Source: Paenibacillus peoriae (GTDB taxonomy: Bacteria; Bacillota; Bacilli; Paenibacillales; Paenibacillaceae). From it: a DNA stretch of 64,000 bases. The notes beneath the pieces were generated by a model. The model worked only from the letters and a program-made list of their open reading frames with translations, ran no database searches and had not been told where the DNA came from. Within the stretch, counting starts at the first letter, position 1; every line of letters begins with the position of its first letter. Both the position numbers and the translations under genes were made by a program. Shown piece by piece: positions 3,966-43,988 of the stretch. Where the stretch lies: positions 2,861,001 through 2,925,000 of the forward strand of contig NZ_CP092831.1 of NCBI RefSeq assembly GCF_022531965.1. The letters run 5' to 3'.

Positions 3966-4047
3966 GTGCTTATTCCTCCAACTTTGATCTAGTAGTCAGT
4001 ATTGACAAATTTATCTCAGTTGAAGTAAAGATTATGTCCAAACTAAA

Positions 4048-4554: not shown

Positions 4555-4702
4555 TTTCACGGATTAATTCGAGAGATGTTGTGTACGGGCAAGCGTTTAG
4601 AGCAAGAAGCTATACTATTATAAACTGTATTTCAGCCACTGGTTGTTGCCGAATTCTATAAGATTCGTGGTAATACTTTGTATTGACAGTGTATTTCACA
4701 AT

Positions 4703-4727
4703 AGCCGCGACTTTTGCGGCTTTTTTC
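4703..4727 (+). terminator. Rho-independent terminator
   Basis: AGCCGC pairs with GCGGCT around a 7-base loop, followed directly by a T run. It would end any transcript from the recombinase/JetD-like side. Confidence 0.7.
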
Positions 4728-4998
4728 ATTTATTGTTATTAGTTGTTTTCTTGGACTGGGACAAAAATCAAAATTGAGCCTTCTATTTTTACCATAAAAA
4801 TGCAAGTAAATCCGTAACTGGCCGATCAAGGAAACAAGGTTGTTACCAGGTTGGTGTAGAGCAAGGTAACGTCTGGGTATCTTGGCGGCTTATTTAAATG
4901 GGGGATGAAGAGCCAGTTGCAGACTACATTCTCAGTTCCCGGCTACAGCAAGCGATCAAAGCGTGATCGTGTGCTGACACCGGCGGTTACTCCTATTC

Positions 4999-5406: not shown

Positions 5407-5677
5407 CTTTGACGCATTGATGCCGCGTCAATCCGTCCGATCCTCATCGATCGGTCCTGCGGCTGCCGCCATAACCCCAGCGCGTCCGGTAAGCCCAAAC
5501 TTCTGGAGCTAGCGATATATATCCGGCGGGTAGTGGAGCGTTGACGATAATATTGCTTACCAACCTGTAACTAAAGAAGTTTTTATTAGAAGGATACCTT
5601 TTTACTTCTACAAACCCGATACACCTCAAAAAATGTAGGTGGCTTCCTTGCTATAATACGTTGCTCTCATTTTAAGA
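5407..5677. other. Gene-free stretch with one hairpin
   Basis: No coding signal recognised. TTGACGC and GCGTCAA form a 7-bp hairpin just after the exporter tail (about 5410-5433) without a T run. A TATAAT at 5652-5657 is a possible -10 box, but no convincing -35 stands in front of it. Confidence 0.4.
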
Positions 5678-5754
5678 TTTCCAGCCTGATAAAAATTTCA
5701 AGTAAAGTAGAACTTATGACCTATTGGAATTATTTTCATATTACTGTATTATCA
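5678..5754 (+). repeat. 77-bp imperfect direct repeat, upstream copy
   Basis: Starts TTTCCAGCCTGAT and runs through AAAGTAGAAC and CCTATTGGAATTATTT to TATTATCA. A second copy in the same orientation lies at 43767-43844, behind the operon and ahead of the secreted-protein gene; I count roughly five in six bases identical. The core TATTGGAATTATTT is fully shared. It is either a shared control element or a scar of the event that placed the operon here. Confidence 0.8.
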
Positions 5755-5766: not shown

Positions 5767-5898
5767 ATGATCGATCAGGACTTTTTAAAAGAACACATAA
5801 AGGATAAATACGGATACGAAAGACTCATCACTTATTTCTCAAGACATGAAGTAATTGGGGAAGAAATTTTTCCGTATCTTGGTACTGCCATTCACTAA
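5767..5898 (+). CDS. Unrecognised 43-residue reading frame at a junction
   Basis: Opens with ATG 5767 and reads M-I-D-Q-D-F-L-K-E-H-I-K, then K-Y-G-Y-E-R-L-I-T-Y-F-S and E-E-I-F-P-Y-L-G, ending at 5898. The composition is that of a real soluble protein rather than random sequence, but I do not recognise the family and no good ribosome site precedes it. It abuts the point where the aminotransferase homology begins in another frame. It is best read as the 5' scrap of some other gene joined to a truncated one. Confidence 0.25.
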   Translation: MIDQDFLKEHIKDKYGYERLITYFSRHEVIGEEIFPYLGTAIH

Positions 5899-6805
5899 AC
5901 GGACTGGTATATTTGCGTTTATGGGAGGATTTCACGGAATGTCGCTGGGGAGTCTGGCTGTTACCAGCAACATTCAGAAAAGATCTTCCTCCGGCATAGC
6001 ATTATCCGATGTTACCTTTTTCCCATACTCCGAGAGTCCAATTGACTCATTCGATACTATTGAATACATGGAAGCCGTTCTAAACGACGGTCACTCGGGA
6101 ATCGAAAAACCGGCGGCTATTATATTTGAAACCATTCAGGCGGAAGGCGGCGTAAATATAGCTTCACCCGAATGGATGCTCAGGCTGAGGGAACTTAGCG
6201 ACAGACACGGTATTCTACTGATTTGCGATGACATTCAGGTTGGCTGCGGACGCACCGGACCGTTCTTTTCATTTGAACGTGCCGGGATGATCCCTGATAT
6301 TGTACTGCTTTCCAAGTCAATCAGCGGGTATGGCCTTCCCATGTCTATTCTGCTGATGAAACCGGAACTTGATGTCTGGAAGCCTGGTGAGCATAACGGT
6401 ACGTTCCGGGGAAACCAGCTTGCTTTCATTGGAGCTACAGCTGCGTTGGAATATTGGGAAATGAATAATTTGGAACAGTCTGTGAAATATAAGGAAGCAT
6501 TTGTAAGAGAATATTTAACCAAGCAGATTTTGTCATTACATAAGGGCCTGACCATTCGGGGTGCAGGTTTGATTTGGGGTATTGATTTTTCCAATGTGGA
6601 GGATGAGCGAATCACGCAAAAAGTAGTAGAGGAATGTTACCAAAACGGTTTAATCATCGAAAGCGCAGGAAGAAAAGACAGTGTTATAAAACTTATGCCT
6701 CCGTTAACCATCGAGCTTGAACTTTTGCAGCAGGGTTGTTCAATTATCAGACAAGCTATTCAAGAGAATATAAATAAAGTATTGGAGGTCGAAAGTTATG
6801 GATAA
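5855..6805 (+). pseudogene. Diaminobutyrate--2-oxoglutarate aminotransferase, N-truncated (EctB-like)
   Basis: A class III PLP aminotransferase of the EctB / DABA-aminotransferase type, which makes L-2,4-diaminobutyrate from aspartate semialdehyde. Family sequence begins only at R-T-G-I-F-A-F (near 5899). It runs through G-G-F-H-G-M-S-L-G, I-C-D-D-I-Q-V-G-C-G-R-T-G (the Asp that holds the PLP ring nitrogen), the Schiff-base lysine in L-S-K-S-I-S-G-Y-G (Lys154 from TTG 5855), and G-E-H-N-G-T-F-R-G-N. Roughly the first 110 residues, including the phosphate-binding part, are missing, so activity is doubtful. Its last codons overlap the ATG of the PKS-NRPS gene by 8 bp, with GGAGG inside its end, so it was once the first gene of the operon. 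A product such as Dab would fit a cationic residue in the peptide. Confidence 0.8.
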
Positions 6806-9800
6806 AATCGCCATTATAGGAATAGGATGCCGTTTGCCAGGAGGAATAAGGGGGCCTGAGGAGTTCTGGGAAGCATTGACTGCGGGAAAAGATATGACTT
6901 CCGATTTACCCGAAGGCCGCTGGGATTTAGAAAAGTTTTATGATCCTGACAAATCAAAGCCAGGCAAGCATTACACCTGTCATGGTGGATTTTTAGATAA
7001 AATAGATGAGTTTGACCCTTTGTTTTTTGGTATTTCTCCAAGGGAAGCGGCCTTTCTTGATCCACAGCAAAGACTGATGCTGGAGACATCATGGGAAGCA
7101 ATGGAAGATGGAGGCTTGGATCCGGCCAAGCTAGCAGGAACCAATACCGGTGTCTTTGTAGCGGGCTTCACCCTTGACTATCAAGCAATACAATTTAAAA
7201 ACGAATCGGTTGAAAGTTTAGATACACATTCGGCAACGGGTATGATGATGACAATGTTGTCCAACAGGATTTCATATATATATGATTTCAGAGGTCCAAG
7301 TTTGTCTGTAGATACAGCGTGTTCGGGCTCTTTGGTTGCAACACACCTTGCATGCGGGAGTTTATTGAATAATGAATGTAATCTCGCAATAGCAGGCGGA
7401 GTAAGTGTTATAGCTACACCTGAGTATACCATAGCGGAAAGTAAGGGTGGTTTTTTATCTCCCGATGGACGGTGCAAAACTTTCGATTCCAGTGCAAACG
7501 GCTATGCAAGAGGAGAAGGAGCCGGCGTTGTGGTTTTAAAACGCCTGTCAGATGCTATCGAAGACGGAGATAGGATTTATGCCGTAATAAGTGGATCGGG
7601 TGTAAACCAGGACGGCCACACAGACGGGATTACTGTTCCAAACGGGCAGGCTCAGGAAAACTTAATGAAGGAGGTATACAAAAAGGCAGGAATATCACCT
7701 TCAGATATAACATATATTGAAGCTCACGGCACCGGCACTCCGGTTGGAGACCCTATTGAGGCTAATGCAATAGCACGAGTGGTTTCAACAGACAGGCCAA
7801 AAGATAAAAAGTGTATTGTCGGATCTGTTAAGACAAACATTGCCCACCTTGAGGCCGCTGCAGGAGTTGCCGCACTGATAAAAGCTTCACTAATCATAAA
7901 GCATAAGCAAATACCTCCACATCTGCACTTTAAGAATCCAAACCCTAAAATTCCCTTTGACGATTTATGTATACGAATTCCTCAGACCCTGGAGCCTTTG
8001 CCGCAACCCGCATTGGTTGGCATAAATTCATTCGGTTTTGGAGGAACAAATGCCCATATCCTCTTGGAGGAAGCTACAGATCTCCAAAAACAGGGTACTC
8101 CTGAAGTTAATGTAAATACCGGATGGCCATATATGATTCCCATATCTGCGCGCTCAGAAAAGGCGCTAAAAAACTATGCGCAAAAGTATGTTGATTTTAT
8201 TAATGGAAGTGGAGAAAGTATTTCTTTATATGATATTGGAAGCATGATGAGCAAAAAGCGCACCCATCATGACTATAGACTAGCGGTTTCGGCATCTTCA
8301 AAGGAAGAACTTGCAGGAAACCTGGAAGCGTATATTAAAGGACAAGCACGCCAGGGGATGTCTGCGGGAAATGTTGAGGCAGGAAAGTACAATAAAGCTG
8401 TTTTTGTATATACAGGTATGGGGCCCATATGGTGGGCTATGGGCAGACAGCTCCTTGAAAAAGACCCTGTGTTTAGAAATATGATAGAAAAATGCGATAA
8501 ACTTACACGTCAGTATGCTGGATGGTCTCTACTGGAGGAACTTCTCGCCGATGAGGAGAATTCACGTCTGGACCAGCCCCAGTTTGCTCAACCTGCCAAT
8601 TTTGCTGTTCAGGTGGGTTTGACTGAAGTATGGAAATCCTTGGGTATTATACCCCATGCGGTGGTAGGACACAGTGTTGGAGAAGTGGCTTCTACATATG
8701 TTGCAGGAATTTACAGCCTTGAAGATGCCATGTTGGTAAGTATTCACAGAAGCCGTGCACAGCAAAAAGCAGTAAACAAGGGCACAATGCTGGCGGTAGG
8801 TTTACCAGAAAAAGAAGTTGTGGCCCTGCTGGATGAGAACATAAAAGGTGTTTCAATGGCAGCAATCAATAGCCCAAATTCGGTAACTTTGTCAGGTGAT
8901 CCTGATGCCCTTGAGCAGATCCAAAAACAGTTGCAGGATAAGGGGGTTTTTGCGCGGCTTTTAAAGGTCAATGTAGCGTATCACAGTTACCAAATGGAAC
9001 CATATGAGCAGGAGCTATTGGAGGCATTAAAAGGAATAAAGTCCCAGCCTGCCGGGATACCGATATATTCCACGGTTACAGGGAAAATGCTGACGGGTAC
9101 AGAGTGTGATGGACATTACTGGTATAAAAATGTAAGAGAGCCGGTACGTTTTGAAGCAGCAATGTATGAAATGATTTCGTTGAATTATAACTTATTTATT
9201 GAGGTGGGCCCTCACCCTGTTTTAGCAGCTTCTATTTCTGATTGTCTGTCAGCTAAAAACGTTGAAGGTAAGAAGTTGTTCTCTATAAAAAGAAATGAAA
9301 ACGAACAGGTTTCAATACTGGAGAACTTAGGGAATCTATATGCACTGGGATACCCTATAGATTGGAACAAGATTTACCGGTACCAAGGTGAGTTTGTAAG
9401 TCTCCCTCTTTATCCATGGCAATGGGATAAATACTGGATGGAAACGCAGGAATCAAGTGAATTTAGGCAGGGAAAAAATAAGCACAAGTTTTTAGGACGC
9501 CGTTTGAAAACTTCCAGCCCTATATGGGAGATTGAACTTAATACTACCTATATGACGTATCTTTCTGATCATAAAATACAAGGTATAGAAGTTTTCCCCG
9601 GAGCAGGGTATGTAGAGCTGGGAATGGCTTGTGCCAGAAGCTATTTTGGAGAGGGTTTTTATACAGTTGAAGATATAAAGTTTGAAAATGCTTTATTTTT
9701 AAATCAAGGAGTATCACCTGTGGTGCAGGTGGTTTTGGATCCAAAAACCGCAAAATTCGAGATTTCAAGCAGGATACCGGGACAAGATAAGACTTGGACA

Positions 9801-15437: not shown

Positions 15438-15479
15438 ATAGGAATTAAAAGAGATGAAATAGAGAAGAGGGACGAAGTT

Positions 15480-18400: not shown

Positions 18401-21400
18401 GCCATTGACAGCTAATGGCAAGATAGACAGGAAGGCATTGCCTGAACCCGAAGGTAATATAAATACGGGAATAGAGTATGAAGCGCCTATAGGCGAATTT
18501 GAAGAGAAGCTTGCACTGATTTGGCAAGACATCCTTGGAATTAAGAAGATAGGAAGAAATGACAACTTCTTTATGTTAGGTGGACACTCTTTAAAGGCTA
18601 CAAGCCTTGTAGCGAGAATTCACAAAGAGTTCAATATAGACATGCCTCTTAAGGAAATATTTAAGGCTCCAATTATAGCGGAAATAGCAAGGTATATGAA
18701 GGAAGCAAAGGAGAGTATATATCAATCCATCCAAACTGCTAAAGAGATGGAATACTACCCTATGTCATCAGCCCAAAGAAGGCTGTATATATTAAATCAG
18801 TTTGAAGGAGCAGGGACAGCATACAATATGCCAGGCAGCTTGCTGGTTGAAGGCAGTATTGATCTGGAGCTTTTTCAGAAGACCTTCCAACAGCTTATAA
18901 ATAGGCATGAGACCCTTCGAACATCTTTCCATTTCATAGAGGGTGAACCCGTCCAGAAGATCAATGATCCTGTGGGTTTTAGTGTAGTGTATCTAGAATC
19001 TGACGAAGAAAAAGTGGGGGAAATCGTAAAAGAATTTATAAAGCCGTTTGATCTTGGAATTGCTCCGCTGCTAAGAGTAGGCCTTGTGAAAACGGGAAAA
19101 GACAAGCATGTCATGATGTTTGACATGCACCATATCATATCTGACGGTACGTCCATGGATATACTGGTACATGAGTTCATGGATATGTATGGAGGAAATA
19201 ACCCTTCTTCCCTCCGTATACAGTACAAGGACTATTCTGTTTGGCAGAAGGAACTATTTGCTGGGGACAAAATAAAGAAGCAGGAGGAATACTGGCTCCA
19301 GGAATTTAATGGAGAAATTCCTGTGCTGAATATGCCAGTAGATTACCAAAGGCCTGCGGTTCAAAGCTTTGACGGAGGTTTTATCCGTTTTGAAGCAGGC
19401 AGTGAGCTTACGGGAAAACTTATTAAGCTTGCAAGGGATAATGGGGCTACTCTTTACATGACATTGCTTGCTTCATACAACATACTGCTGTCTAAGTATA
19501 CGGGGCAGGAAGATATTATAGTGGGAAGCCCTATAGCTGGAAGACCTCATACAGATTTACAAGACATAATAGGTATGTTTGTAAATACTTTAGCCATGAG
19601 GAACTATCCCCAGGGAGAAAAGACCTTTGCTGAGTTTCTAAAGGAAGTAAGGGAAAACTCTATAAGGGCTTATGAAAATCAGGACTACCAGTTTGAAGAA
19701 CTGGTGGAAAAGCTTAATGTAAAGAGGGATATGAGCAGGAATCCTCTTTTTGATACTATGTTTGTATTGCAAAATACCGGCTCATCAGAATTGAAGATAG
19801 ATAGGCTTAAGTTTATACCCTATACAAATGAATTTAGAATATCCAAATTTGACTTGACATTAAATGCTCGGGAAACCCAGGAAGGTATTGCATTTGATTT
19901 GGAATATGCCACAAGGCTGTTCAAGAAAGAGACTGTAGAAAGGTTTGCAGCCCATTACCTTAATGTTCTGGAAGAGATAACGGTTTATCCTGGAAAAAGG
20001 TTGTCAGAAATTGATATGCTTTCACAGGAAGAAAAGCAGAAAATACTATATGACTTTAACGATACAAAGGTCCGGTATCCTAAGGATAAGACTATACATC
20101 AACTGTTTGAAGAGCAGGTAGAAAAGACACCCAATAATATTGCTGTAGTGTTTGAAGATAAACAGCTGACTTATAGGGAGCTAAACGAAAAGGCAAACCA
20201 ACTGGCCAGAAAATTAAGAGAAAAGGGAATAAAACCTGATAGTGTAGTGGGAATTATGGTAGAACGTTCCCCGGAAATGATCATAGGGATCATGGCTGTC
20301 CTAAAAGCTGGGGGGGCTTATTTACCCATAGCTCCTGAATACCCTGAAGACAGGATCCAGTTTATGCTTGATGACAGTGGCAGCCAAATTATTCTGATAC
20401 AGGATAAATTTATAAATGCTAAAGGTAGTTACAGAAATGCTGAATTTATTAGCATAGAAAATCAGGAACTATTTACTGGGGATGTATCAAATCCAAAGTT
20501 AATTAGTAAACCTGAAAACTTGGCTTATGTAATATATACATCCGGTTCTACCGGCAAACCCAAAGGGGTAATGATAGAGAACTACTCCGTAATCAACCGG
20601 ATCAACTGGATGCAGAAGCAATACCCGATAGCTGAAGGTGATGTGATCCTGCAGAAAACTCCCTATACCTTTGACGTATCGGTATGGGAATTATTGTGGT
20701 GGAGCTTTACTGGGGCCAAAGTCTGCCTGCTGATACCGGGAGGAGAAAAAAATCCGGAAGAAATCGTGAAGGCAATCGAAAAAAATAAAGTTACCACAAT
20801 GCACTTTGTACCATCCATGTTGAGTGTATTTTTAGAGTATGTAGAGGAAAAGGGGATAATAGAGGAAATAGCAAGCTTAAAGCAGGTATTTGCCAGTGGA
20901 GAAGCACTGAACCTGAAGCAAGTAGAAAAGTTCAACAAGCTGCTGTACAAAGAAAAAGGAACAAGCCTGCATAACCTGTACGGACCAACAGAAGCAACAG
21001 TAGATGTATCCTACTTTGGCTGCTCTACGGAAGAAGAATTGGAGCTTGTACCTATAGGAAAGCCCATAGATAACATTAAGTTGTATGTTGTCAGTAAGGA
21101 AAAGGGCCTGCAGCCGATAGGAGTAGCGGGAGAACTATGCATAGCAGGGGATGGACTGGCAAGAGGGTACTTGAACAGACCGGAACTTACAGAAGAAAAA
21201 TTCGCAGCAAACCCATTCGCACCGGGTGAAAGGATGTACAGGACAGGTGACCTGGCAAGGTGGCTGCCTGACGGCAACCTAGAATATCTGGGCAGGATCG
21301 ACCATCAGGTAAAGATAAGAGGCTACAGGATAGAACTGGGTGAAATAGAGAACCGGTTATTAAAGCATGAAGCAATAAAAGAAGCGGTGGTATTGGACAA

Positions 21401-24400
21401 AGAAGGAGCTGACGGAAATAAGTATCTTTGTGGATACGTCGTACCGGATCAAGAAATAACCGTACAGGGGATGAGGGAACACTTGTCAAAAGAGCTCCCG
21501 GACTACATGATCCCTTCCTACTTTGTGCGGATGGAAAAGCTGCCATTGACCCCTAATGGAAAAATAGACAGGAAAGCATTGCCTGTGCTCGATAGCAATG
21601 TTAATACCGGCGTAGAATACGTAGTACCTTCGGGAGAAATAGAGGAGAAACTTGCGCTGTTGTGGCGGGATATCCTTGGAATAGAGAAGGTAGGAAGAAA
21701 TGATAACTTTTTTATGCTTGGGGGACACTCGTTAAAGGCAACAAGCCTTGTAGCAAGAATTCACAAAGAGTTCAATATAGACATACCTCTTAAGGAAATA
21801 TTCAAGACACCAACCATCTTAGAAATTGCCAGATATATTAAAGACTCAAAGGAGAGCCTATATCAGTCAATCCAACCGGCAGGAGAAATGGAATACTACC
21901 CTATGTCATCTGCACAAAGAAGGCTGTATATACTAAACCAGCTTGAAGGGGCAGGGACAGCATACAACATGCCTGGTATTATGCTGCTGGAAGGAAGCAT
22001 TGATACAGCGCGTTTCCAGGAAGTCTTCAGGCAGTTGGTAAAAAGGCATGAGACTCTTAGAACATCGTTCCACATGATCGATGGTAACCCGGTCCAGAAG
22101 GTTCATGACCATGTGGAATTCAGCGTGATGTACTTTGAAACTAACGAAGAAAAAGCCGCAGAGTATGCTGGGGAATTTGCCAGACCTTTTGATCTTGGCA
22201 AGGCTCCTCTGCTAAGGGTAGAGCTTGTAAAAACGGGAGAAGACAGGCATCTTATGATGTTTGATATGCATCACATTATATCCGATGGTGTCTCCATGGA
22301 CATACTGATTCGTGAGTTTATGGATCTTTATGAAGGAAACAACCCTCCAGCACTTCGGATACAGTACAAGGACTACGCTGTATGGCAGAATAAACTGTTT
22401 GATGAGGGCGGAATTAGCAGCCAGGAGGAATACTGGCTCCAAGCATTCCAGGGAGAAATACCTGTACTGAATATGCCGCTAGACTATCCAAGGCCTGTAA
22501 TACAAAGCTTTGAAGGGGATTTTTTTAGCTTTGAAGCAGGCAGTGAGCTTACGAATAAATTAAACAAGCTTGCAAGGGATAATGGGGCTACGCTTTACAT
22601 GACACTGCTCGCGGCATACAACATATTGCTGTCTAAGCACACCGGACAGGAAGACATAATCGTTGGAAGCCCTATAGCCGGAAGGCCACATTCAGACCTG
22701 CAGGATATCCTTGGTATGTTTGTAAATACCTTGGCTATGAGAAATTACCCCAAGGGAGATAGTACCTTTGTAGAATTCTTGAATGAAGTAAGAGAAAACG
22801 CTCTAAGGGCTTATGACAATCAGGATTACCAATTTGAAGAACTGGTTGAGAAGCTTAACTTGAAGAGGGACATGAGCAGAAACCCACTGTTTGATACTAT
22901 GTTTACCATGCAAAATGCCTCTAAGGTAGAATTTGCAGTACCTGGTATAAGCTTCAGACCTTTTAATAACGGGCTAGAGTATAGAATATCAAAATTTGAC
23001 CTATCCATTGATGCAATAGAGCGTGAAGATGGTATGGCTTTTAGCTTTGAATATTGTACTCGGCTTTTCAAAAAAGAGACTATAAAAAGGTTGGCGGCTC
23101 ATTACCTTAACGTGTTGGAAGAGATAACCGCAAATCCGTTTAAAAGGTTGTCGGAAATAAATATGTTGTCCCAGGAGGAAAAACAGCAAATAATCTATGG
23201 CTTCAATGATACAAAAGTAGAATATCCTAAGGATAAGACCATACAAGAGCTATTTGAAGAACAAGTGGAAAAGACGCCTGATAACATAGCAGTAGTATTT
23301 GAAGATAAATACTTGACTTACGGAGAACTTAATGAAAAGGCCAATCAACTGGCTTGGATCTTAAGGGACAAGGGATTAAAACCTGACAGTGTAGTAGCTA
23401 TAATGGTAGACCGGTCCATAGAAATGATAATAGGTGTAATTGCTGTATTTAAAGCAGGAGGCGCGTATTTACCCATAGACACCGAATATCCTGAAGAACG
23501 AATCAGATATATGATCGATTACAGCTTGGCTGGAATTATTCTTACGCAAGAACATCATAAAGAAAAAATTAAATTTGATCTTGATATTATAAGCTTTGAT
23601 GACTGTGTGAATTACAACGGGAGAACAGAAAATCTTCCTGTCATTAATAAATCTTGTAATTTAGCATATGTCATTTATACATCAGGAACCACAGGAAAGC
23701 CAAAGGGGATCATGATAGAGCATAGAAGTCTTGTCAACATATCTTACGCATGGAAAAAGGAATATAGGCTTGCGGATATGGATGTAAAGCTGTTGCAAAT
23801 CGCAAGTTTTTCTTTTGATGTATTTGTGGGAGATGTTTCGAGAACGCTGCTCAACGGAGGCCAAATGGTTATTTGTTCATCCGAGGAGAGATACGATCCT
23901 GCACGATTATATTCACTTATTAAAACCCATAAAATAACCATCTTTGAATCCACACCGGCACTGATTATTCCTCTTATGGATTATATCCATGATAATGCTT
24001 TGATTATTGATAGCCTCAAGTTGCTTATACTTGGATCAGATACTCTCTCTGTGGAAGATTATGAAAGATTACAATCCTGGTATGGAGAGAAACTGCGGGT
24101 TGTTAATAGCTATGGGGTTACTGAGTCCACCATAGATTCCAGTTATTACGAAAAGAGACTGGGAAGCTATTTGGAATCCGGGAGTGTACCTATCGGAAAG
24201 CCAATGCAAAATATAAAATACTACGTTGTTGACAAACACTTGAGACCTCAGCCTACAGGGGTTTTGGGTGAGTTGTGCATAGGGGGAGAAGGGCTTGCAA
24301 GGGGATATCTAAACCGGCCCGAACTGACAGCTGAAAAATTTGTACCTAACCCGTTTATACCAGGGGAAAGGATGTATCGTACAGGGGATCTGGCCAGATG

Positions 24401-27400
24401 GCTGTCTGATGGGAATATGGAATTTTTAGGAAGAGTAGATCATCAGGTAAAGATAAGGGGATTTAGAATAGAGCTGGGGGAAATAGAAGCACAACTGCTA
24501 AAGCACGTTTCAATAAAGGAAGCAGTGGTTATTGCAAGGGAAGATCAGAAGGGAAACAAGTATCTGTGTGCCTATGTGGCAGGGGAAAATGAATTAACAA
24601 TAGCAGAACTAAGGGGACATCTCTTAAAGGACCTTCCAGACTATATGATACCATCCTATTTTATGCAGTTAAAAAAGCTGCCGCTGACTCCCAATGGCAA
24701 AATAGATAGGAAGGCATTGCCCGAACCTGACGGCAATATCGATGCTGGAATAGAGTATGTCGCACCCTTGGGTGAAGTGGAGGAGAAACTTGCGGGGTTG
24801 TGGCAGGATATCCTTAGTATAGAGAAAGTGGGAAGAAACGACAATTTCTTTGAGCTGGGGGGACATTCCTTAAGGGCAGCAAATCTTATTGCCAGGATTC
24901 ACAAAGAGTTCAATGTAAACATACCGCTTAAAGAAATATTTAAGAGCCCAAATATGTCTGAAGTTGCCGAGTGCATCAAGATTGCAAAGGAGAGTGTATT
25001 TCATTCTATTGGGCCGGCTGGGGAGATGGAGTACTATCCAATTTCATCCGCCCAGAAAAGGCTGTATATTCTAAACCAGCTTGACGCAGTTGGGATGGCA
25101 TACAACATGCCTGGTATTATGCTAATTGAAGGCAAACTCGATAAACTGCGCTTTGAACAGGCTTTTAGGGAGCTTGTTGACAGACATGAGTCTTTCCGTA
25201 CCTCATTCCATATGATAGATGGTAAACCGGTACAAAAGGTCCATAGCAATGTGGATTTTAGTGTTATGTATATGGAAACCGATGAGGAAAGAGCTGCGAA
25301 AATAGCCAGTGAATTTATTAGGACCTTTGACCTTGATGAGGCTCCTTTACTTAGGGTTGGGCTTATAAAAGTTGGAGAAGACAGATATATTATGATGTTT
25401 GATAAGCACCATATTATATCTGACGGGGTGTCTGACGACATACTGGTAAGAGAATTTATGAGCCTGTATGAAGGTAAGGAACTTCTGGAACTTAAGATTC
25501 AGTACAAGGATTTTTCCGTATGGCAGAACAGGCTGTTTGCTGATGGGACAATTAGTAAGCAGGAAGAATACTGGCTCCAAGTATTCAAAGGAGAAATTCC
25601 TTTGCTTAATATGCCGCTAGACTACCCTAGGCCAGCTATACAGAGTTTTGAGGGAGATGTGATCAGTTTCAAAGCAGGCAAGGAGCTTGCTGTTAAACTG
25701 AACAAACTTGCAGTGAATAATGGTGCCACGCTCTACATGGTACTTTTAGCTTCATACAATGTCCTTTTATCCAAGTACACCGGACAGGAAGATATTATAG
25801 TTGGAAGTCCCGTTGCAGGAAGGCCGCATACTGATCTTCAGGACGTTATTGGTATGTTTGTAAACACGCTAGCCATGAGGAATCACCCTCAAGGTGGAAA
25901 GACTTTTGTGGACTTCCTTAATGAAGTAAGAGAAAACTCCTTAAGGGCTTACGAAAACCAAGATTACCAATTTGAAGAACTGGTAGATAAGCTTAACCTG
26001 GAAAGGGATCTGGGCAGAAATCCACTTTTCGATACTATGTTTGTACTGCAAAATATCGAGGCATCAGAAGTGAAGATGGATGGGCTAAGGTTTATGCCCT
26101 ATGACAGTGAAGTAAGAATATCCAAGTTTGACTTGACTTTAAACGCTGAGGAAACAGAGGACGGTATTGCATTTGAATTGGAGTATGCTACCAGGTTGTT
26201 TAAGAAAGAGTCAGTTATAAGGCTTATTGCCCATTACCTTAATGTATTGGAAGAGGCAGCAGCCTTTCCTGAAAAAAGGCTATTAGAAATTGATATGCTG
26301 TCACAAGACGAAAAACATCAAATATTATATGAATTTAATAATACAAAAGCAGGATACCCTCGGGAAAAGACCATCCATCAGATTTTTGAGGAACAGGTGG
26401 AACGGACACCCAATAATATTGCTGTAGTGTTTGAAGATAAACAGCTGACTTATAGGGAGCTAAACGAAAAGGCAAACCAACTGGCCAGAAAATTAAGAGA
26501 AAAGGGAATAAAACCTGATAGTGTAGTGGGAATTATGGTAGAACGTTCCCCGGAAATGATCATAGGGATCATGGCTGTCCTAAAAGCTGGGGGGGCTTAT
26601 TTACCCATAGCTCCTGAATACCCTGAAGACAGGATCCAGTTTATGCTTGATGACAGTGGCAGCCAAATTATTCTGATACAGGATAAATTTATAAATGCTA
26701 AAGGTAGTTACAGAAATGCTGAATTTATTAGCATAGAAAATCAGGAACTATTTACTGGGGATGTATCAAATCCAAAGTTAATTAGTAAACCTGAAAACTT
26801 GGCTTATGTAATATATACATCCGGTTCTACCGGCAAACCCAAAGGGGTAATGATAGAGAACTACTCCGTAATCAACCGGATCAACTGGATGCAGAAGCAA
26901 TACCCGATAGCTGAAGGTGATGTGATCCTGCAGAAAACTCCCTATACCTTTGACGTATCGGTATGGGAATTATTGTGGTGGAGCTTTACTGGGGCCAAAG
27001 TCTGCCTGCTGATACCGGGAGGAGAAAAAAATCCGGAAGAAATCGTGAAGGCAATCGAAAAAAATAAAGTTACCACAATGCACTTTGTACCATCCATGTT
27101 GAGTGTATTTTTAGAGTATGTAGAGGAAAAGGGGATAATAGAGGAAATAGCAAGCTTAAAGCAGGTATTTGCCAGTGGAGAAGCACTGAACCTGAAGCAA
27201 GTAGAAAAGTTCAACAAGCTGCTGTACAAAGAAAAAGGAACAAGCCTGCATAACCTGTACGGACCAACAGAAGCAACAGTAGATGTATCCTACTTTGGCT
27301 GCTCTACGGAAGAAGAATTGGAGCTTGTACCTATAGGAAAGCCCATAGATAACATTAAGTTGTATGTTGTCAGTAAGGAAAAGGGCCTGCAGCCGATAGG

Positions 27401-30400
27401 AGTAGCGGGAGAACTATGTATAGCAGGGGATGGACTGGCAAGAGGGTACTTGAACAGACCGGAACTTACAGAAGAAAAATTCGCAGCAAACCCATTCGCA
27501 CCGGGTGAAAGGATGTACAGGACAGGTGACCTGGCAAGGTGGCTGCCTGACGGCAACCTAGAATACCTGGGCAGGATCGACCATCAGGTAAAGATAAGAG
27601 GCTACAGGATAGAACTGGGTGAAATAGAGAACCGGTTATTAAAGCATGAAACAATAAAAGAAGCAGTGGTATTGGACAAAGAAGGAGCTGACGGAAATAA
27701 GTATCTTTGTGCGTACGTCGTACCGGATCAAGAAATAACCGTACAGGGGATGAGGGAACACTTGTCAAAAGAGCTCCCGGACTACATGATCCCTTCTTAC
27801 TTTATGCAGATGGAAAAGCTGCCATTGACCCCTAATGGAAAAATAGACAGGAAAGCATTGCCCGAGCCTGACGGAAGTATGAGTACGGGAACAGAATATG
27901 TAGCGCCGCGGAATGAAGTGGAAGAGAAACTGGTTGAAATATGGCAGGAAGTGCTTGGAGCAAAACAGGTAGGAATAAGGGACAACTTCTTTAAAATAGG
28001 CGGAGATTCTATACGTGCAATATCATTAGTCAGCACAATATGCAAAAAGTTGGATATAAACATCCAAATCAGGGATATATACATGAATCCTGATATTGAG
28101 AGATTGTCTGCATTCTTAAAAGTAAAAGATACGGAAGCTTTTAACAGTAAGATGGGTAAAGCAAGGGAAGAACTGGAGTTATTTAAACAGCGAATATTGA
28201 TGAATGAAACTCTCTCAGAAAAGTTACCTTCGGACATGGAAGATATATATCCGATGAGTCACATAGAGCTGGGTATGATTTATCATTCCAAAAAAGACTA
28301 TGAAAATGCAGTTTATCATGACCAATTTGCATTTCATCTGAATGACAAAGACTTTGATTTCCCAGCATTTAAAGAAGCGATGCTTCTAATGACGTCAAAA
28401 CATGATATTTTAAGGACGGTTTTTAATTTAGAGGATTTTGAAACTCCTGTGCAAATTGTTTACAAGGGCAGTAGTCTTGATATTGAGCAGATAGATATCA
28501 TGAATTTTAGCAGGACAGGGCAGGTTGAGTATATAAACAAATATTTGGAAAATGACAGAGCGAATCCGTTTGATATATCAAAGCCCCTTTGGAGGATAAG
28601 AATATTCAAACTTGACGCAAACCATATTTGTCTGGTTCTGATATTCCACCATGCTATCCTGGATGGCTGGAGTGTTGCTTCATTGATTACGGAAGTTTCA
28701 AACCTATACTCTAAGCTTAAGCAAGAAAAAGATTATATACCAACACGGCTTAAATGCAGCTATAAAGATTATATAGCAGACCAAATGACAATTAAGGACA
28801 ACCAGGAAGTAATTAATTATTGGAGAGAGGAATTAAGTGAATATAAAAGGTTGAATATGCCTGCAAATATTCATGGAAAAACAAAAAAATCTTATAAAGT
28901 AGACCATGTAACACGCCATTTAAGTCAGGAATTTTTAGGTGATTTAAGAAGTACTGCCAGAAGATATGATGTAAGCTTAAAGACACTTTGCTTTGCTGCA
29001 TACACTTATATGCTCAATATGCTTTCATACGAGGATGACTTTGTCGTAGGTTTGGTAGAAAATAACAGACCTGTATGCGAAGATGGAGATAAGATGCTGG
29101 GGTGCTTCTTAAATACGGTTCCCGTCAAAATGTGTTTTGATAAAATCGATATATGGGAGGAATTGATAAAAGTTGCAGAAAAGAAATTAATAAACTTAAA
29201 GCTTTATGGAAGACTGCCTTTATTTGAGATCATAAATATCCTGGGCGGAAAAGAAAACAAAGAGGAAAATCCTTTATTTGATACCATATTCAATTATGTG
29301 GATTTTCATATATATAACGAGATAATAAACAAAGAAATCGGTGATGTTAAAGATAGAATTTCAGTTGATGAATATGAAGCAACCAATACAAGTCTTGACT
29401 TTACAGTAAGTAATACATTCGATGATCTTAATATAAGCTTGATCTACTCGGACAAAGTATTGGAAAGAAAACAGGCAGAAGAGTGTATAGACTATTTTAT
29501 TAATATTTTAAATATGTTTATCCATAACCCCAAAGGGTCAGTTGACAAGCTTATTATATTAAGTCATGAAGAAAGAAAGCAGTTGCTGATAGACTTTAAT
29601 GATACTAAGAAAGACTATCCGCAGGACAAAACCATACATGAGCTGTTTGCTGAGCAGGTGGAAAGGACACCTGACAACATAGCTGTGGTATATGAAGACA
29701 AGCACTTGACTTACAGGGAATTGAACGGAAAGGCAAATCATTTGGCCAGAGTATTGAGGAACAAAGGGGTAAAGCCTGACCGTATTGTAGGAATTATGGC
29801 CGAACGTTCATTTGAGATGATTGTGGGGATATTTGCCATATTGAAAGCTGGAGGGGCGTATCTGCCGATAGATCCTAATTATCCTGATACAAGGATAAAG
29901 TATTTGTTGGACGATAGTGGTTCCCAGATCCTTTTGACCTCCAGGACCTTTATGGAAAATAAGCAGATTGATGCGGATATTATATATCTGGAGGAAGAAT
30001 ATTTAAATGAAGAGAACTCAAAGCTTGAAAATGTAAACAAACCCTCGGACCTTGCGTACGTCATTTATACATCAGGTTCGACAGGGAAGCCCAAAGGTGG
30101 AATGATTGAGCATACTAGCGTTGTAAACATAATTACAGCCCTCCAGGCCATGTATCCGCTTAAAGCGGAAGACGCTTTTCTATTTAAAACAACTTATACC
30201 TTTGACGTATCCGTAGCTGAGATATTTGGCTGGTTCCTCAACGGAGGAAAGCTTGTAATATCACGCCAAGGTGTGGAAAAGGAAGCTATGGAGTTAGTAG
30301 AGGTAATAAACAAGCATAAGATAACCCATGTAAACTTTGTACCATCAATGCTGAATATAATGGTACAAACTTTAAAAGATAATGGTATAAAACTGCCATC

Positions 30401-32798: not shown

Positions 32799-32827
32799 AA
32801 AGAGTTTGTATTTAAGGAGGAGTACTT

Positions 32828-35800
32828 ATGAGTGATTTGAAGAAACAAAACATAAAAGATATGTACCGGCTCACTCCTATGCAGCAAGGGATATTGTACC
32901 ACTATATGATGGATAAAAATTCAGACGCCTACTTTGAGCAGATATCACTTTCTATAAAAGGCATCCTGGACATTGATTGTGTTGAAAAGAGCGTTAATAT
33001 CATTATTGAAAAGTATGACGCTTTGAGAACAATTTTTTTGTATGAAAATGTAGCCAAGCCCTTACAAGTAGTCATGAAGGAAAGAAAGCTGTCTGTCAGC
33101 TATGAGGATATTACCTCCCTTGCCGAAGAACTAAGGGATAGGTATATAGAAGAATACAGGGTTAAAGACAGAAAAAAGGGCTTTGACTTATCAAGGGATA
33201 TTTTAACAAGATTAAGTGTAATTAAAACAGGCTACCAATCTTATAACATGGTATGGAGCTTTCATCACATCATTATTGATGGGTGGAGTCTCGCAAATAT
33301 ATTTAGAGAATTTATGGAAAACTATGAAGCCCTGATGAATAGCCGGGAGCCGGAGTCAGGAAAGGTATATCCTTACAGCCGCTATATCAAATGGTTGGAA
33401 GGCAGAAATCAGAACGAGGCCGCAGATTACTGGGAAACCTATCTTAAAGGTTACGAGCATCAGACAGTCCTTCCCCAAAACGGCAGGTTTGCAAGTGATG
33501 ATTTCAGGATTGAAGAAACGGAGTTTAAAATATCTGAACAAATAACTAGCGATCTTGAGAAGTTTGCAGCCAAAAACAATACAACCATGAGTACCATTAT
33601 AAAGACCATATGGGGGATATTATTACAGCGGTATAACAATACCGATGATGTGGTGTTTGGTGAGGTGGTATCGGGAAGGCCTCATGAAATACAGGGAATT
33701 GAGAGCATGGTGGGTTTATTTATAAATACCGTTGCAGTAAGGGTGAGTTGTGATGAGGATAAAACTTTTACCGAACTGATCAAAGAGATGCAGCAATCGG
33801 TGCTTGAATCTGACCGGTACAGTTTCTATCCTCTGGCGGATGTGCAGTCAAAAACATGCTTGAAAGATGCCTTGATACATCATGTTATGGCTTTTGAAAA
33901 TTACCCTATGGATGAAGCGGTTAATGCTTCATCCAGTAATGGCATTTTAAATGTAGTTGGAATGGAAATATTCGAGCAGACGAATTATGATTTTGGGATA
34001 CTCGTTGATGGCGGTAAGGAATTATCTATTAAATTCAGTTACAACTCACTGGTATATGATGGTAATTTCATAGAAAAAATCAAGGGACATTTTCAGTCGG
34101 TAATAGAAATTGTAACCGATAATCCCGATATGCATATTAGGAATATTGATATACTCACCGAAGTGGAAAAGAAAGAAATAGTACACTGCTTCAATAATAC
34201 AACGGAGGAATACCACAGGGAAAAGACCATTCACCAACTATTTGAGGAACAAGCGGTGAAGACACCTGACAATGCGGCAGTGGTGTTTGAGGGTAAGCAG
34301 CTAACCTATAGGGAACTCAATGAGAAGTCAAATCAGCTTGCAAGAGTGTTGAGGGATAAGGGAGTTAAACCAGACAGCATAGTGGGTATTATGGTAGAAC
34401 GCTCACTGGAGATGGTCATAGGTATATTTGGCATACTTAAAGCCGGAGGGGCATATATGCCTATAGATCCTGACTACCCTAAGGCAAGAATCGAATATTT
34501 ACTCGAGGACAGCGAGATAGGGGTGCTGATTTCCCAAAAGCAATTCCTGGAGAAATTGGAGTTTTACGGGAAGTATATAGACATAGAAGATGAAAGCCTT
34601 TATGCCGGAAACCCTATGAACCTGGAAGTGGTATGTTCACCGCAAAATTTGGCATATATCATTTATACATCTGGGTCTACAGGAAAACCTAAAGGGGTTA
34701 TGGTAGAACATAAAGGGGTAGCAAATCTGGAGGCGTTTTTCAAGACCCGCTTAAATGTAAGTGAAAGCGATAGGATTATTCAATTTGCATCAATTTCATT
34801 CGACGCTGCAGTTTGGGAAATATTTATGGGACTATTGGCAGGAGCAACACTATATATATCTTCAGGCGATATTATCAATGACTATCGAAGATTTGAAGAA
34901 TACCTAAATGAAAATGAGATAACTATTGCTACTTTACCACCTCCGTATCTGGCAAATCTGGACCCGGAAAAAGTAACTTCCTTAAAGAAGGTAATTGCAG
35001 CAGGTTCGGCTTCCACTCTCGAACTTTTAAAGAAATGGAGCAACAGGATTTCATATATAAATGCTTATGGACCTACTGAGACAACCGTATGTGCAACGGT
35101 ATGGAAAGCAGATGATTGTGAGACGGCCGATAAGTCGGTACCTATTGGTAAACCTATTACCAATACCCGGGTGTTTATAGTTGATGAAAACAATAATCTT
35201 AAGCCCATAGGTGTTGAGGGTGAACTCTGTGTTTCCGGGGCAGGATTGGCGAGAGGATACTTGAAAAAACCGGAACTTACCAGGGAAAAGTTTGTACCGA
35301 ACCCATTTATGCCTGGAGAACTGATGTATAAAACAGGAGATCTTGCAAAGTGGCTTCCTGACGGGAATATTGCATTTGCCGGCAGAAAAGACCACCAGGT
35401 TAAAATAAGAGGGTATAGAATCGAGCTTGAGGAAATAGAAGCAGCCCTTTTGAAGCATGCTGATATAAATGAGGCGGTGGTCATTGACCGGGAGGATTCA
35501 AGTGTAGGCAGGTATCTTTGCGCTTATATAGTGTCTGACCGAGAAGTGACAGTGACCGAAATAAGGGAGCTTATATCTAAAGAGCTGCCCGATTATATGA
35601 TTCCATCCTATTTTATGAGGATAGCAAAAGTACCGTTAACCATAAATGGAAAATTGGACAGAAAGGCGCTGCTGCTGCCTGATGGAAGAATAAATACAGG
35701 AACAGAGTATGCAGCGCCTTCAGGTGAAGTGGAGGAAAGGCTTGCGCTGCTGTGGCAGGACATCCTTGGAATAGAGAAGGTAGGAAGAAATGATAACTTC

Positions 35801-38800: not shown

Positions 38801-41800
38801 AAGAACTTGCCCCACCCTGCTGCTCATTTAAATACTGGAGTAGAGTATGAAGCACCTTCAGGTGAAGTGGAAGAGAAGCTTGTACAATTGTGGCAGGATA
38901 TCCTGGGGGTTGAGAAAATAGGGAGAAATGATAATTTCTTTGTGCTTGGGGGGCACTCATTAAAAGCAATAAACTTTGCAGCCAAAATTCACAAAGAGTT
39001 CAATGTAAATATATCTCTTAAGGAGATATTCAAGCTGCCGACAATTGCAGAAATTGCCAAGTACATCCAGGAAGCCCAAGAGAGTATTTATCAATCTATC
39101 CAGCCCACTGGAGAAATGGAATACTATCCTATGTCGTCTTCCCAAAGAAGGCTGTATATATTAAATCAGCTTGAAGGAGCAAGGGTGGCATACAATATGC
39201 CAGAGTTTATGTTGTTAGAAGGCAGTATTGATATAGAACGTTTTGAGAAAGCCTTAGATCAGCTGGTAAAAAGGCATGAGGCTTTCCGGACCTCCTTCCA
39301 TATGGTAGATGGTGAACCGGTGCAGAAGGTCCATGATGAGGTGGAATTTAGTATCATGTACATGGAAACCGGCGAAGAAAAAGCCTCAGAAGCAGCAAAT
39401 GAATTCATAAGGCCATTTGACCTTGGCAAGGCTCCTTTACTAAGAGCAGGGCTCGTAAAAATTAGAGAAGACAGGCATGTCATGATGCTTGATAAACACC
39501 ATATCATATCTGATGGGGTGTCGGATGAAATACTGGTAAGAGAATTCATAAGCTTGTATGAAGGAATGAATCTTCCAGCACTTCAGATTCAGTACAAGGA
39601 CTATTCCGTATGGCAGAATAAATTGTTTGCTGACGGCACAATCAGTAAACAAGAAGAATACTGGCTCCAGGCATTTAGGGGAGAAATACCAGTACTTGAT
39701 ATGCCGGTAGACTACCCAAGGCCGGCTATACAGAGTTTTGAAGGCGATATGGTCAGTTTTGAAACAGGCCGGGAACTTGCACATAAACTGAACAAGCTTG
39801 CCGTGGATCATGGAGCAACACTGTATATGGTGCTTCTAGCTTCATACAATGTGCTTCTTTTCAAATACACCGGACAGGAAGATGTCGTAATTGGAAGCCC
39901 TATAGCAGGAAGGCCACATACAGATTTGCAGGACATCATAGGCATGTTTGTCAATACCCTAGCTATGAGGAATTACCCTCAAGGTAAAAAGAATTTCAGC
40001 GAGTTTTTGATGGTAGTAAAAGAAAACGCTCTAAGGGCTTATGAAAACCAGGATTACCCATTTGAGGAACTTGTGGAGAAGCTTAGCATTAAGCGGGATT
40101 TGAGCAGAAATCCGCTGTTTGATACTATGTTTGTCTTGCAAAATAAAGAGGCATCAGAATTTAAGATGAATGGGCTAAGGTTCATGCCCTATGATAATGA
40201 GTTCAGGGCGTCCAAATTTGATTTGACCCTAAACGCCCAAGAGACCCAGAATAATATTGTATTTGGGTTAAAGTATGCTACTCGTCTGTTTAAGAAAGAG
40301 ACAATAGAAAAACTTGGGGTCCATTTCATCAATGTACTGGAAGAGATCACAGCTTACCCCGAAAAGATGCTGTCCGAAATAAATATACTATCTCAGGATG
40401 AAAAACAGCAAATACTAAATAGTTTTAATGATACAAAGGCAGAATACCCTAGGGATAAGACTCTACATGAGCTGTTCCAAGACCAAGTGGAAAGGACACC
40501 TGATAATGTAGCTGTAGTGTTTGAGGACAAGCAATTAACCTACAGGCAGCTCAATGAAAAGGCAAATCAGCTTGCCAGAGCACTAAGAAGTAATGGTGTA
40601 AAGCAAAACAGCATAGTTGGAATAATGGTAGAAAGATCCGTAGATATGCAGGTTGGAATACTGGGGATTTTAAAAGCAGGAGGTGTCTATTTACCAATTT
40701 CAACCAAACTTCCTGAACTAAGAATAAAAAAATTACTGGAAGATAGTAATGCAACTATGCTGTTGACGCAATCACATTTAGCGGATAAAGCAGAGTTTTA
40801 CGGTAATATATTACTGCTTGATTCCCCTGAAATATACATTGGAAGTGCTGAAAACCTTGATAAAATAAATAAACCAGAGGACTTAGCTTATATCATTTAT
40901 ACATCGGGATCTACTGGAGTTCCGAAGGGTTCAATGATAGAGCATCGAAGTGTAGTTAACTTGGTTTATGGACTAAGAAAGCTTGTCTATGAAAATTATG
41001 ATAATTATTTAAATGTTGCCCTTGTGTCCCCTTACTTTTTTGACGCATCTGTAAAACAAATATTTGCGGCTTCTCTCCTTGGCCATACGCTGTTTATAGT
41101 TCCTGAGGATACAAGGCTAGATGGTGAGGGCCTTCTAAAGTACTATAACAGGAATTCAATTGCTGTTTCAGACGGAACACCAGCACATATAAAGCTTTTA
41201 ACAAATACTGCCAGGCCTGGCGAAAGTCTTTCAGTTATGCAGTTTATTATCGGAGGGGAAGAACTTTCATGTAAAGGTATACAAGGTTTCTATGATCGGT
41301 TTAAAGATAATAACCCTACTATAACAAACGTTTATGGTCCAACAGAATGCTGCGTAGATTCAACTTATTACCATTTAAGCCGTGAGAAGGTGAGAAATCT
41401 AACAAGTATACCTATAGGTATGCCATTGCAGAATTATAAGATATATATACTTAATGAAGACATGAATATCTTACCGGTTAATACAACTGGTGAAATATAT
41501 ATATCTGGAGATGGGCTGGCAAAAGGCTATTTGAACAAACTTGAATTGACTACGGAAAAATTTGTAGCTAATCCTTTCAGCTCTGGAGAAAGAATGTATC
41601 GTACCGGTGATCTTGGAAGGTGGCTTCCTGACGGAAACATCGAATTTATAGGCAGAGTAGACCATCAGGTAAAGATTAGGGGCTTTAGGATAGAGCTTGG
41701 GGAAATAGAAGTGCAGCTATTAAAGCATCCTTCAATAAAAGAAGCTGCGGTAATTGCAAAGACAGACCAGGAGGGCAACAAGTATTTGTGTGCTTATATA

Positions 41801-42937: not shown

Positions 42938-42960
42938 TTCAGATATAAGGGGTAGATATA

Positions 42961-43683
42961 ATGGATAAGATTAAATTGTTTTGTCTGCCGTATGCAGGAG
43001 GTTCTGCAGCAGTATATAAATATTGGGAACAATACTTGCATGATAGGATTGAGCTTTTCCCGATTGAGCTTGCGGGAAGAGGCAGCAGGATTGGTGAACC
43101 GTTTTACGGAAGTGTTGAGGAAGCGCTTGAAGATATACACCGTATTATCATAAGCAACCTTGAAGAACAACCTTATGCGTTGTTTGGCCACAGTATGGGC
43201 AGTGTACTTGTATATGAACTTGCCTATAGAATAAAGGAGCTCGGACATCCATATCCTGTCCATATGTTTATTTCCGGCAGATATCCTCCGGGTTTTGTAA
43301 GTAAGAAGAAGGTACTCTATGATTTGCCGGATAAGGAGTTTGTGGATGAGGTATTTAAGCTGGGAGGCACGCCCAAAGAGGTTCTGAAAAGCAATGAATT
43401 AATGGAGTTGTTTTTACCGATACTCAGAGCGGATTTTAGAATTACTGACACATACAGGCACATTGAAAAAAACGCTAAGCTTGACTGCGATATAAGTGTA
43501 TTGTGGGGAAAAAGAGAAAAGGGAGCCACTATTTTTGACGTTGCAAAATGGCATGATTATACGTCCAAAAGTTGTAAAATTCATATGTTTGACGGGGATC
43601 ATTTTTTTATACACGATTACAAAAAGGATGTAGCAGCAATAATAAATAGTAGTCTCATCGACTTTGCAGACAATGGTATGTGA
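42961..43683 (+). CDS. Type II thioesterase of the biosynthetic operon
   Basis: A 240-aa stand-alone alpha/beta-hydrolase thioesterase. These enzymes clear misloaded or stalled groups from carrier domains of NRPS and PKS lines. Visible: an N-terminal F-C-L-P-Y-A-G-G-S-A, the nucleophile Ser78 in G-H-S-M-G-S, R-Y-P-P-G in the lid region, and the histidine near the end in D-G-D-H-F-F-I-H. Length is normal for the family. ATG 42961 lies 23 bp after the last NRPS with an AGGGG ribosome site, so it is the last gene of the operon. Confidence 0.93.
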   Translation: MDKIKLFCLPYAGGSAAVYKYWEQYLHDRIELFPIELAGRGSRIGEPFYGSVEEALEDIHRIIISNLEEQPYALFGHSMGSVLVYELAYRIKELGHPYPVHMFISGRYPPGFVSKKKVLYDLPDKEFVDEVFKLGGTPKEVLKSNELMELFLPILRADFRITDTYRHIEKNAKLDCDISVLWGKREKGATIFDVAKWHDYTSKSCKIHMFDGDHFFIHDYKKDVAAIINSSLIDFADNGM

Positions 43684-43920: not shown

Positions 43921-43986
43921 GTGCTGATAAATGTTGAAAATGAGCAACACAGGAAAATATCAGAAGAAAAATACAAGGAGGTTTGA
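43921..43986 (+). CDS. 21-residue upstream reading frame ahead of the secreted protein
   Basis: GTG 43921 follows a G-rich site (GGGGGGG, about 4 bases of spacing) and gives V-L-I-N-V-E-N-E-Q-H-R-K, then I-S-E-E-K-Y-K-E-V, with TGA at 43984-43986. The AAGGAGG of the next gene lies within its last codons and its stop is 2 bp before the next ATG. That is the layout of translational coupling or a leader peptide. No family is recognised. Confidence 0.45.
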   Translation: MLINVENEQHRKISEEKYKEV

Positions 43987-43988
43987 AA

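Follow-up and report, generated by a model that had tools for sequence, protein, structure and literature searches.

A PKS-NRPS line in Paenibacillus, likely spread by horizontal transfer and predicted to build an N-acylated nonapeptide

The stretch of DNA analysed here ("the window") comprises 64,000 nucleotides of the Paenibacillus peoriae genome, a single contig of 5.84 Mb, and contains a hybrid polyketide synthase-nonribosomal peptide synthetase (PKS-NRPS) line. Five same-strand genes fill positions 5855-43683: a truncated aminotransferase, three synthetases that we call S1, S2 and S3, and a stand-alone thioesterase (Table 1). An earlier note, made from the sequence alone, had described such a line here, and its coordinates and frames proved accurate, as did its module order; the NRPS modules are arranged 1+5+3 behind one PKS module. 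The frames of S1, S2, S3 and the thioesterase are uninterrupted over 37 kb. The reading that we favor, with moderate confidence, is that these genes form a three-synthetase line, probably spread horizontally, that would build an N-acylated nonapeptide, acyl-Dab-Thr-Ser-Orn-Ser-Gly-Phe-Gln-Glu, where Dab is diaminobutyrate.

Table 1. Features of the line and its borders, in window coordinates
Feature	Coordinates	Strand	Basis or remark
Left flanking repeat remnant, 112 bases	5642..5753	+	92% to P. macerans DNA upstream of left CBM-SLT gene
EctB-type diaminobutyrate--2-oxoglutarate aminotransferase, 316 aa, N-terminally truncated	5855..6805	+	Two ectB-type profiles and comparison with intact copies
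S1, KS-AT-DH-KR-ACP-C-A1(Dab predicted)-PCP, 2879 aa	6798..15437	+	Pfam, motifs, A code
S2, five modules A2(Thr) A3(Ser) A4(Orn) A5(Ser) A6(Gly)-E, substrates predicted, 5772 aa	15480..32798	+	Pfam, motifs, A codes
Module 3 (Ser) A core, near-identical to module 5 A core	20126..21583	+	Gene-conversion or duplication tract
Module 5 (Ser) A core, partner of module 3 tract	26405..27862	+	
S3, three modules A7(Phe) A8(Gln) A9(Glu)-TE, substrates predicted, 3369 aa	32828..42937	+	Pfam, motifs, A codes
Module 7 A core (Phe code)	34450..35770	+	Tyr-type core instead in P. macerans
Stand-alone (type II) thioesterase, 240 aa	42961..43683	+	
CBM5/12-SLT lytic-transglycosylase-like gene, right-hand copy of flanking pair	43983..44741	+	

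Pfam was run on pieces of the proteins, and motifs served to locate the inner modules of S2 and S3. S1 contains ketosynthase (KS), acyltransferase (AT), dehydratase (DH), ketoreductase (KR) and acyl carrier (ACP) domains followed by condensation (C), adenylation (A) and peptidyl carrier (PCP) domains. S2 ends in a condensation-family (epimerization, E) domain and S3 in a thioesterase (TE). By motif position, S2 has five modules and S3 three, each with a C/E histidine motif and a carrier serine. All of the catalytic motifs that we sought are present: DTACSGS in the KS, GHSVG in the AT, HKIQGIEVFP and LDACFQ in the DH, TGAFGGIG with TDD in the KR, GMDSL in the ACP, the expected motifs in all 10 C/E domains and the 9 NRPS carriers, and GYSAG in the S3 thioesterase. 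These data bear out the view that the synthetases are full length with their catalytic residues. The order of a cis-AT PKS module, an NRPS chain and a terminal TE is that of a hybrid type I PKS-NRPS line.

Nine A-domain codes were extracted by alignment to the GrsA core. They read DVWELTADDK (A1), DFWNIGMVHK (A2), DVWHFSLVDK (A3 and A5), DVGEIGSIDK (A4), DVANFAIIYK (A6), DAWTIAAVCK (A7), DAQDIGVVDK (A8) and DAKDIGVVDK (A9). Seven are standard codes, which we take to specify Thr (A2), Ser (A3), Orn (A4), Ser (A5), Phe (A7), Gln (A8) and Glu (A9). The product order proposed earlier, acyl-X1-Thr-Ser-Orn-Ser-(D)X2-Phe-Gln-Glu, thus stands in its module order and in the seven residues given by these codes, while X1 and X2 are now likely Dab and Gly. 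The accompanying claim that two codes fit no standard substrate needs revision, because A1 is close to the pocket of PvdL and A6 to that of LgrA module 2. As text strings, the pocket codes had no match in the literature searched, nor in the available main text of PMC12283262, so the Dab and Gly assignments rest on the PvdL and LgrA alignments.

Among solved structures, PvdL is the second-best match to the A1 pocket region. The alignment gives DIWELTADDK, one residue away from the A1 code, and we take the PvdL pocket to be specific for Dab. The code DIWELTADDK is also carried by P0006, a PKS-C-A-PCP-E protein that is 50% identical to S1. Because the A1 pocket is one residue from that of PvdL and an EctB-type gene adjoins in the operon, Dab is likely the A1 substrate. 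Two points weigh against this assignment. The top match of the A1 pocket region is 9n1u, an NRPS with an unnamed substrate, rather than PvdL, and the A1 code is of another type than those at the Dab modules of the genome's own polymyxin line (4,989,514-5,030,482), whose six Dab modules read DVGEISSIDK or DVGEISAIDK. Four of these six modules fit the PmxE order Dab-Thr-Dab-Dab-Dab, which is printed in the available text of PMC4397504. A near relative of Dab, such as diaminopropionate (Dap), may be the substrate instead; Dap and Dab codes lie close to each other according to the available text of PMC12283262. A4 has Gly at position 301, unlike the polymyxin Dab codes, and is therefore of the Orn type. 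The window line and the polymyxin synthetases PmxA/B/E share a predicted Dab at position 1 and Thr at position 2. They differ in the type of Dab code, in the PKS head and predicted C-terminal Glu of the window line, and in having no order overlap after residue 2. A structure prediction of A1 made without an alignment reached a mean pLDDT (predicted local distance difference test) of 40 and was not used.

The A6 pocket region is closest, among solved structures, to LgrA module 2 (DVANFAIIYK versus DIANLCIIYK), so A6 likely activates Gly. We take LgrA module 2 to load Gly despite the E domain behind it, and its C-A-PCP-E ending to be the same as that at the end of S2; the line around LgrA and its product are unrelated to those of the window. 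An intact-looking E domain, retaining HHLVVDG and EGHGRE, is nevertheless odd behind a predicted Gly module and weighs against this assignment. A chiral residue 6, such as D-Ala, with the S2 E domain setting its configuration and a D-specific C domain at the start of S3 taking it up, is possible, though we consider it rather doubtful. Besides the retained motifs, this alternative draws on the first S3 C domain, which stands out by sharing 18-25% identity with the remaining nine C/E domains and has a start motif that we take to be of the D-donor type, and on the A6 pocket, which shares Asn278 and Tyr331 with what we presume to be Ala codes. The LgrA precedent argues against it, as does the A6 code of Paenibacillus macerans, DVTNFAIIYK, with its Thr at position 239.

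Among the C/E domains, seven C domains group together at 46-75% identity. Three domains are outliers at 18-25%: the C domain that precedes A6, the E domain and the opening C domain of S3. The carrier preceding the A6 C domain reads GGDSI, as does the carrier preceding the E domain. Because of these outlier domains and GGDSI carriers, epimerization may affect residue 5 or residue 6. Of the D-configured X2 proposed in the earlier note, the E domain with intact motifs at the end of S2 is confirmed, but the D configuration becomes doubtful if residue 6 is Gly, and residue 5 may be the epimerized one.

The PKS head of S1 had been credited with a single round of extension. This cannot be assumed, since the S1 KS sits in a clade of one-KS proteins that includes P0110, a tetramate-synthase-like protein with an Orn code (DVGEIGSIDK, the same as A4) and a TE motif. 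The KS tree held 311 domains, namely that of S1 and the KSs found by motif in 119 proteins and 74 loci; its members were gathered by similarity to S1 and by length, without a characterised reference KS, and it is no census. Within it, the S1 KS groups with P0002-P0004 (support 0.97) and then with P0006 and P0096 (0.98). These belong to a clade of 74 (support 1.0) in which every member comes from a one-KS protein. All 216 KSs of multi-KS proteins fall outside it, together with 21 one-KS tips. Tetramate synthases are iterative, single-module proteins with the order KS-AT-DH-KR-ACP-C-A-PCP-TE, and a large single-module clade without characterised members has been classed as tetramate-type iterative (available text of PMC10308959).

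Given the place of the S1 KS in this clade with P0110, iterative polyene formation is plausible. In this alternative, to which we give considerable weight while stopping short of preferring it, the PKS head would carry out several KS-AT-DH-KR rounds, as in polycyclic tetramate synthases, and would thereby assemble the acyl group from malonate as a conjugated polyene. Neither the line nor the open reading frames (ORFs) listed upstream of the intact EctB in P. macerans showed a loading domain, an acyl ligase or a starter gene, which also speaks for it. However, 67 of the 74 clade members are loci without characterisation here, one-KS tips also occur outside the clade, and the members were picked for their similarity to S1 and their length. 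Tree position is no proof of iteration, and KSs that accept a fatty acyl starter could fall in the same clade. S1 resembles the polycyclic tetramate macrolactam synthases of the HSAF/FtdB type in having a single KS-AT-DH-KR-ACP module directly before C-A-PCP, in addition to the KS clade shared with P0110. An ornithine-activating A domain is a trait of those synthases. S1 departs from them in its A1 code, predicted to specify Dab rather than Orn, and in ending after the PCP without a TE, to be followed by eight more NRPS modules.

Under our favored reading, the S1 PKS module would provide an alpha,beta-unsaturated acyl chain, either by adding one malonate to a fatty acyl group supplied in trans or as an iterative polyene. 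This chain would be passed to Dab on S1, extended with Thr-Ser-Orn-Ser-Gly on S2 and with Phe-Gln-Glu on S3, and released by the S3 thioesterase as a free acid or a ring. The stand-alone thioesterase would edit stalled carriers. For a mono-enoyl product with a C10:1 chain and Phe at residue 7, the calculated [M+H]+ is 1121.584 (linear) or 1103.573 (cyclic), changing by 14.016 for each CH2 and by +15.995 with the Tyr predicted in P. macerans; each additional double bond of a polyene would lower it by 2.016. The Dab presumably came from the operon's own EctB originally; in the window genome, a second full-length ectB likely replaces the truncated gene as its source.

The earlier note knew of no described lipopeptide with this residue order, and we likewise found no product in the literature searched. 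The 1+5+3 order itself, however, had already been printed in 2024 as an antiSMASH prediction: in its available text, Table 1 of PMC11350920 lists '(pk-ala) + (thr-ser-orn-ala-ala) + (phe-ala-ala)' twice for Paenibacillus polymyxa, from antiSMASH 4, without a product and without comment. That entry agrees with the window line in its split and in residues 2, 3, 4 and 7, and differs in giving ala at the five positions where we read Dab, Ser, Gly, Gln and Glu. Because of this match, the line has very likely been detected by software before, but not studied. What is new here are the revised substrate predictions (Dab and Gly), the question of the PKS head and the evolutionary record of the line.

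Several lipopeptides come from the P. polymyxa group, and not every one has its genes assigned. The line could thus belong to an already named Paenibacillus metabolite, such as paenilipoheptin, jolipeptin or gavaserin, under another annotation. For P. polymyxa, an 'NRPS, T1PKS' cluster is listed under the name paenibacterin (available text of PMC7773762), which may or may not be the window line. We nonetheless judge an already named product very unlikely. Searches for the residue order turned up, for Paenibacillus, only the antiSMASH prediction, and the iturin-like heptapeptide line of strain E681 has a different predicted order, (mal)+(pk)+Ser-Orn-Phe-Val-Phe-Phe-Glu (available text of PMC4397504). 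The window line shares with iturin, mycosubtilin and paenilipoheptin lines a PKS head, a Bacillales host, the lipopeptide logic and thioesterase release. Unlike them, S1 contains neither an acyl ligase nor an in-line aminotransferase domain, the EctB-type enzyme is separate, and the nine modules follow a different order. Our proposed product finds no counterpart in the metabolites tabulated for P. ottowii LIS04 (available text of PMC11381237), which weighs against it: none of the five undetermined formulas has the predicted 12 nitrogens, although carriage of the line by LIS04 is itself unestablished. One of the undetermined peaks in that table, peak 19 (C56H98N16O13), was set aside as a candidate; its formula is given as [M+H]+ for polymyxin B in the available text of PMC11350920.

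We then asked how the line is distributed. A scan of genome contigs retained 77 loci. Three of them match the whole of S1 at 97-100% identity (best segment), namely those of P. ottowii MS2379, Paenibacillus sp. BJ-4 and P. macerans MER 50.2, and no other exceeds 49%. Among 75 genomes of the genus, a full 3001-base PKS query was found at ~100% in four, the window genome included, and 19 others gave partial matches only, the longest 67% over ~960 bases. Clusters at 90% identity contain 132 member sequences for S1 and 130 for S3. The rpoB region of the window genome is 93% identical to that of P. ottowii (G019), BJ-4 (G045) and a third carrier genome, G025, whereas the line is 99.7-99.9% identical over 15.2 + 16.4 kb, 14.4 kb and 37.1 kb, respectively. 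Against P. macerans, the line is 96-97% and the rpoB region 79-82% identical. Because identity in the line so far exceeds that in the rpoB region, the line, common to at least five species, has likely moved horizontally and recently. A plasmid search with the EctB-S1 DNA gave no match.

The borders of the line suggest what may have moved. The P. macerans line is bracketed by two copies of a CBM5/12-SLT gene, one immediately ahead of EctB and the other immediately behind the thioesterase, with segments 86-97% identical, and homology to the window stops just past the right copy, at 44807. BJ-4 has parts of both copies, interrupted by contig ends, P. ottowii has the left copy only and G025 neither, and the window genome keeps the right copy and the left-flank remnant. 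The gene is found at E <= 1e-30 in only 5 of the 75 genus genomes, three of them carriers of the line. From P. macerans, the one complete case, and BJ-4, where contig ends interrupt the region, we infer that the transfer unit extends from CBM-SLT to CBM-SLT and possibly moves by recombination in these repeats.

Further features were noted on either side of the line. To its right, two transposase remnants (DDE_Tnp_1; DUF772/DDE_Tnp_1_2) lie at 45126-47894. At window position 43841, the P. ottowii DNA continues directly with the transposase region found at window 45845, and G025 shares this junction; this joining of the 45845-47633 DNA to the line suggests a shared deletion or insertion. Further on, a DNA topoisomerase III ORF (49111-51003) lacks about the first 86 profile positions. 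To the left, window 1-4964 is 99% identical in P. ottowii. It includes two consecutive tyrosine-recombinase-like ORFs with weak phage-integrase matches and a third small ORF (31-3611), arranged like what we take to be a Tn554-type transposition trio, and a C-terminal fragment of the Wadjet protein JetD (4048-4554; PADLOC JetD1, E 3e-39). A major facilitator superfamily (MFS) transporter gene fragment follows at 4988-5549. We considered this gene as the exporter of the line and dropped it: only a part of it survives here, the P. ottowii copy is broken into two frames, and the upstream ORFs listed for P. macerans do not include it. In G025 (locus L105), just upstream of the line and near the last 20 codons of a deleted ectB, the start of a short ORF, presumably TnsA-like, hints at the end of a Tn7-like element. 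Elsewhere, the window genome has two giant NRPS frames with a similar match pattern, 14,093 and 14,084 aa long, at G000:C1:2499000-2542000 and 2739000-2781000.

The first gene of the line had been noted as truncated, and the lesion is real and local. It encodes an aminotransferase of the EctB family, a type that had not been recognized earlier, from which roughly 125 N-terminal residues are missing. The ectB-type profiles match the protein only from positions 122 and 126 on, short of a full-length EctB, and homology to the intact protein begins at 5892, codon 125 in P. ottowii. The in-operon EctB is full length in P. ottowii and P. macerans. In G025, all but its last 20 codons are deleted and a different sequence is joined there, and in BJ-4 it has a stop at codon 8 in an otherwise open frame. 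At a threshold of E <= 1e-60, at least one further full-length ectB was found in the window genome, P. ottowii, G025 and BJ-4, and no second ectB in P. macerans. Lesions in the operon thus occur in 3 of 4 genomes with a spare ectB and in 0 of 1 without, a pattern drawn from five genomes, too few for a test.

These lesions also bear on whether the line still works. In the window genome, the DNA from the MFS gene to EctB codon 125, the expected site of the operon promoter, has been replaced, which weighs against a functional line in this strain. We therefore weighed the less probable reading that the line is a silent relic here, having lost promoter and precursor with the EctB start and upstream DNA, and that its synthetases are pseudogenes too young to have drifted. 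It would fit the EctB lesions, different in each of the three affected carriers among the five examined, and the indels that split S2 and S3 in G025, which may be real or sequencing errors and, if real, are a point against function. The open frames of the window synthetases and thioesterase tell against it. Dab may also not be in short supply, as each of the three lesion genomes has another full-length ectB, and a slightly shorter BJ-4 EctB could be made from a later start.

Substitution patterns gave a longer view. Between P. macerans and the window, the ratio of nonsynonymous to synonymous rates (omega) is 0.14 for EctB, 0.16 for S1 and 0.20 for S2, and the P. macerans frames are open; the line was therefore kept working over this divergence. 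The stand-alone thioesterase differs by 2 nonsynonymous and 0 synonymous changes. The S3 value of 0.32, from an alignment with two stops and 95 indel events, was not used; since the P. macerans S3 frame is open, we attribute these to an exchanged core, described below. Among near-identical copies, S1 shows 9 synonymous and 6 nonsynonymous changes against P. ottowii, and 8 and 17 against G025 (17 of 25 nonsynonymous). These counts are small and less clear, and the high nonsynonymous share, which gives no support to recent purifying selection, is a further point against the favored reading. The P. ottowii frames of S1, S3 and the thioesterase are uninterrupted, and so are both ends of S2, the parts read of a gene that is spread over several contigs. 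We conclude that the line is real and probably functional in its intact relatives, and that its function in the window strain is uncertain.

The P. macerans codes equal those of the window except at A6 and at A7, where DGTITAEVAK is what we take to be a Tyr code. Over S3 residues ~541-981, protein identity to P. macerans falls to 26-70%, versus 94-100% in the flanking blocks, and the exchanged block starts ahead of motif A3 and stops shortly before the carrier. The A core of module 7 has been replaced, Phe-type against Tyr-type, between the two lines. We found no donor of the Tyr-type core in G000, G019, G025 or G077: besides the P. macerans copy there was no whole-length match, and partial matches above 300 bases reached at most 80%. 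Within the window, the A cores of the Ser modules 3 and 5 share a near-identical tract with an exact run of 1014 bases, flanked by sequence at 55-83%. Both this tract pair and the module 7 block start upstream of A3 and end before the carrier.

Taken together, these observations allow a bolder picture, which we offer tentatively. A tetramate-type iterative polyene synthase may have been grafted onto a nonapeptide line, giving a class of polyenoyl-Dab lipopeptides not yet isolated. The block would move between duplicated lytic-transglycosylase genes, shed its EctB in hosts that make Dab for polymyxin and vary its product by A-core exchange (Phe versus Tyr at residue 7). If our reading is right, the line would provide an uncharacterised lipopeptide open to testing and a tetramate-type PKS head serving a peptide chain. 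It would also be a natural experiment in NRPS engineering, as near-identical synthetases carry a clean A-core swap in module 7 whose breakpoints can be compared with engineered ones. Finally, with lesions of the in-operon EctB only in hosts that have a second ectB, the line raises the hypothesis that the precursor supply of the host may shape mobile clusters.

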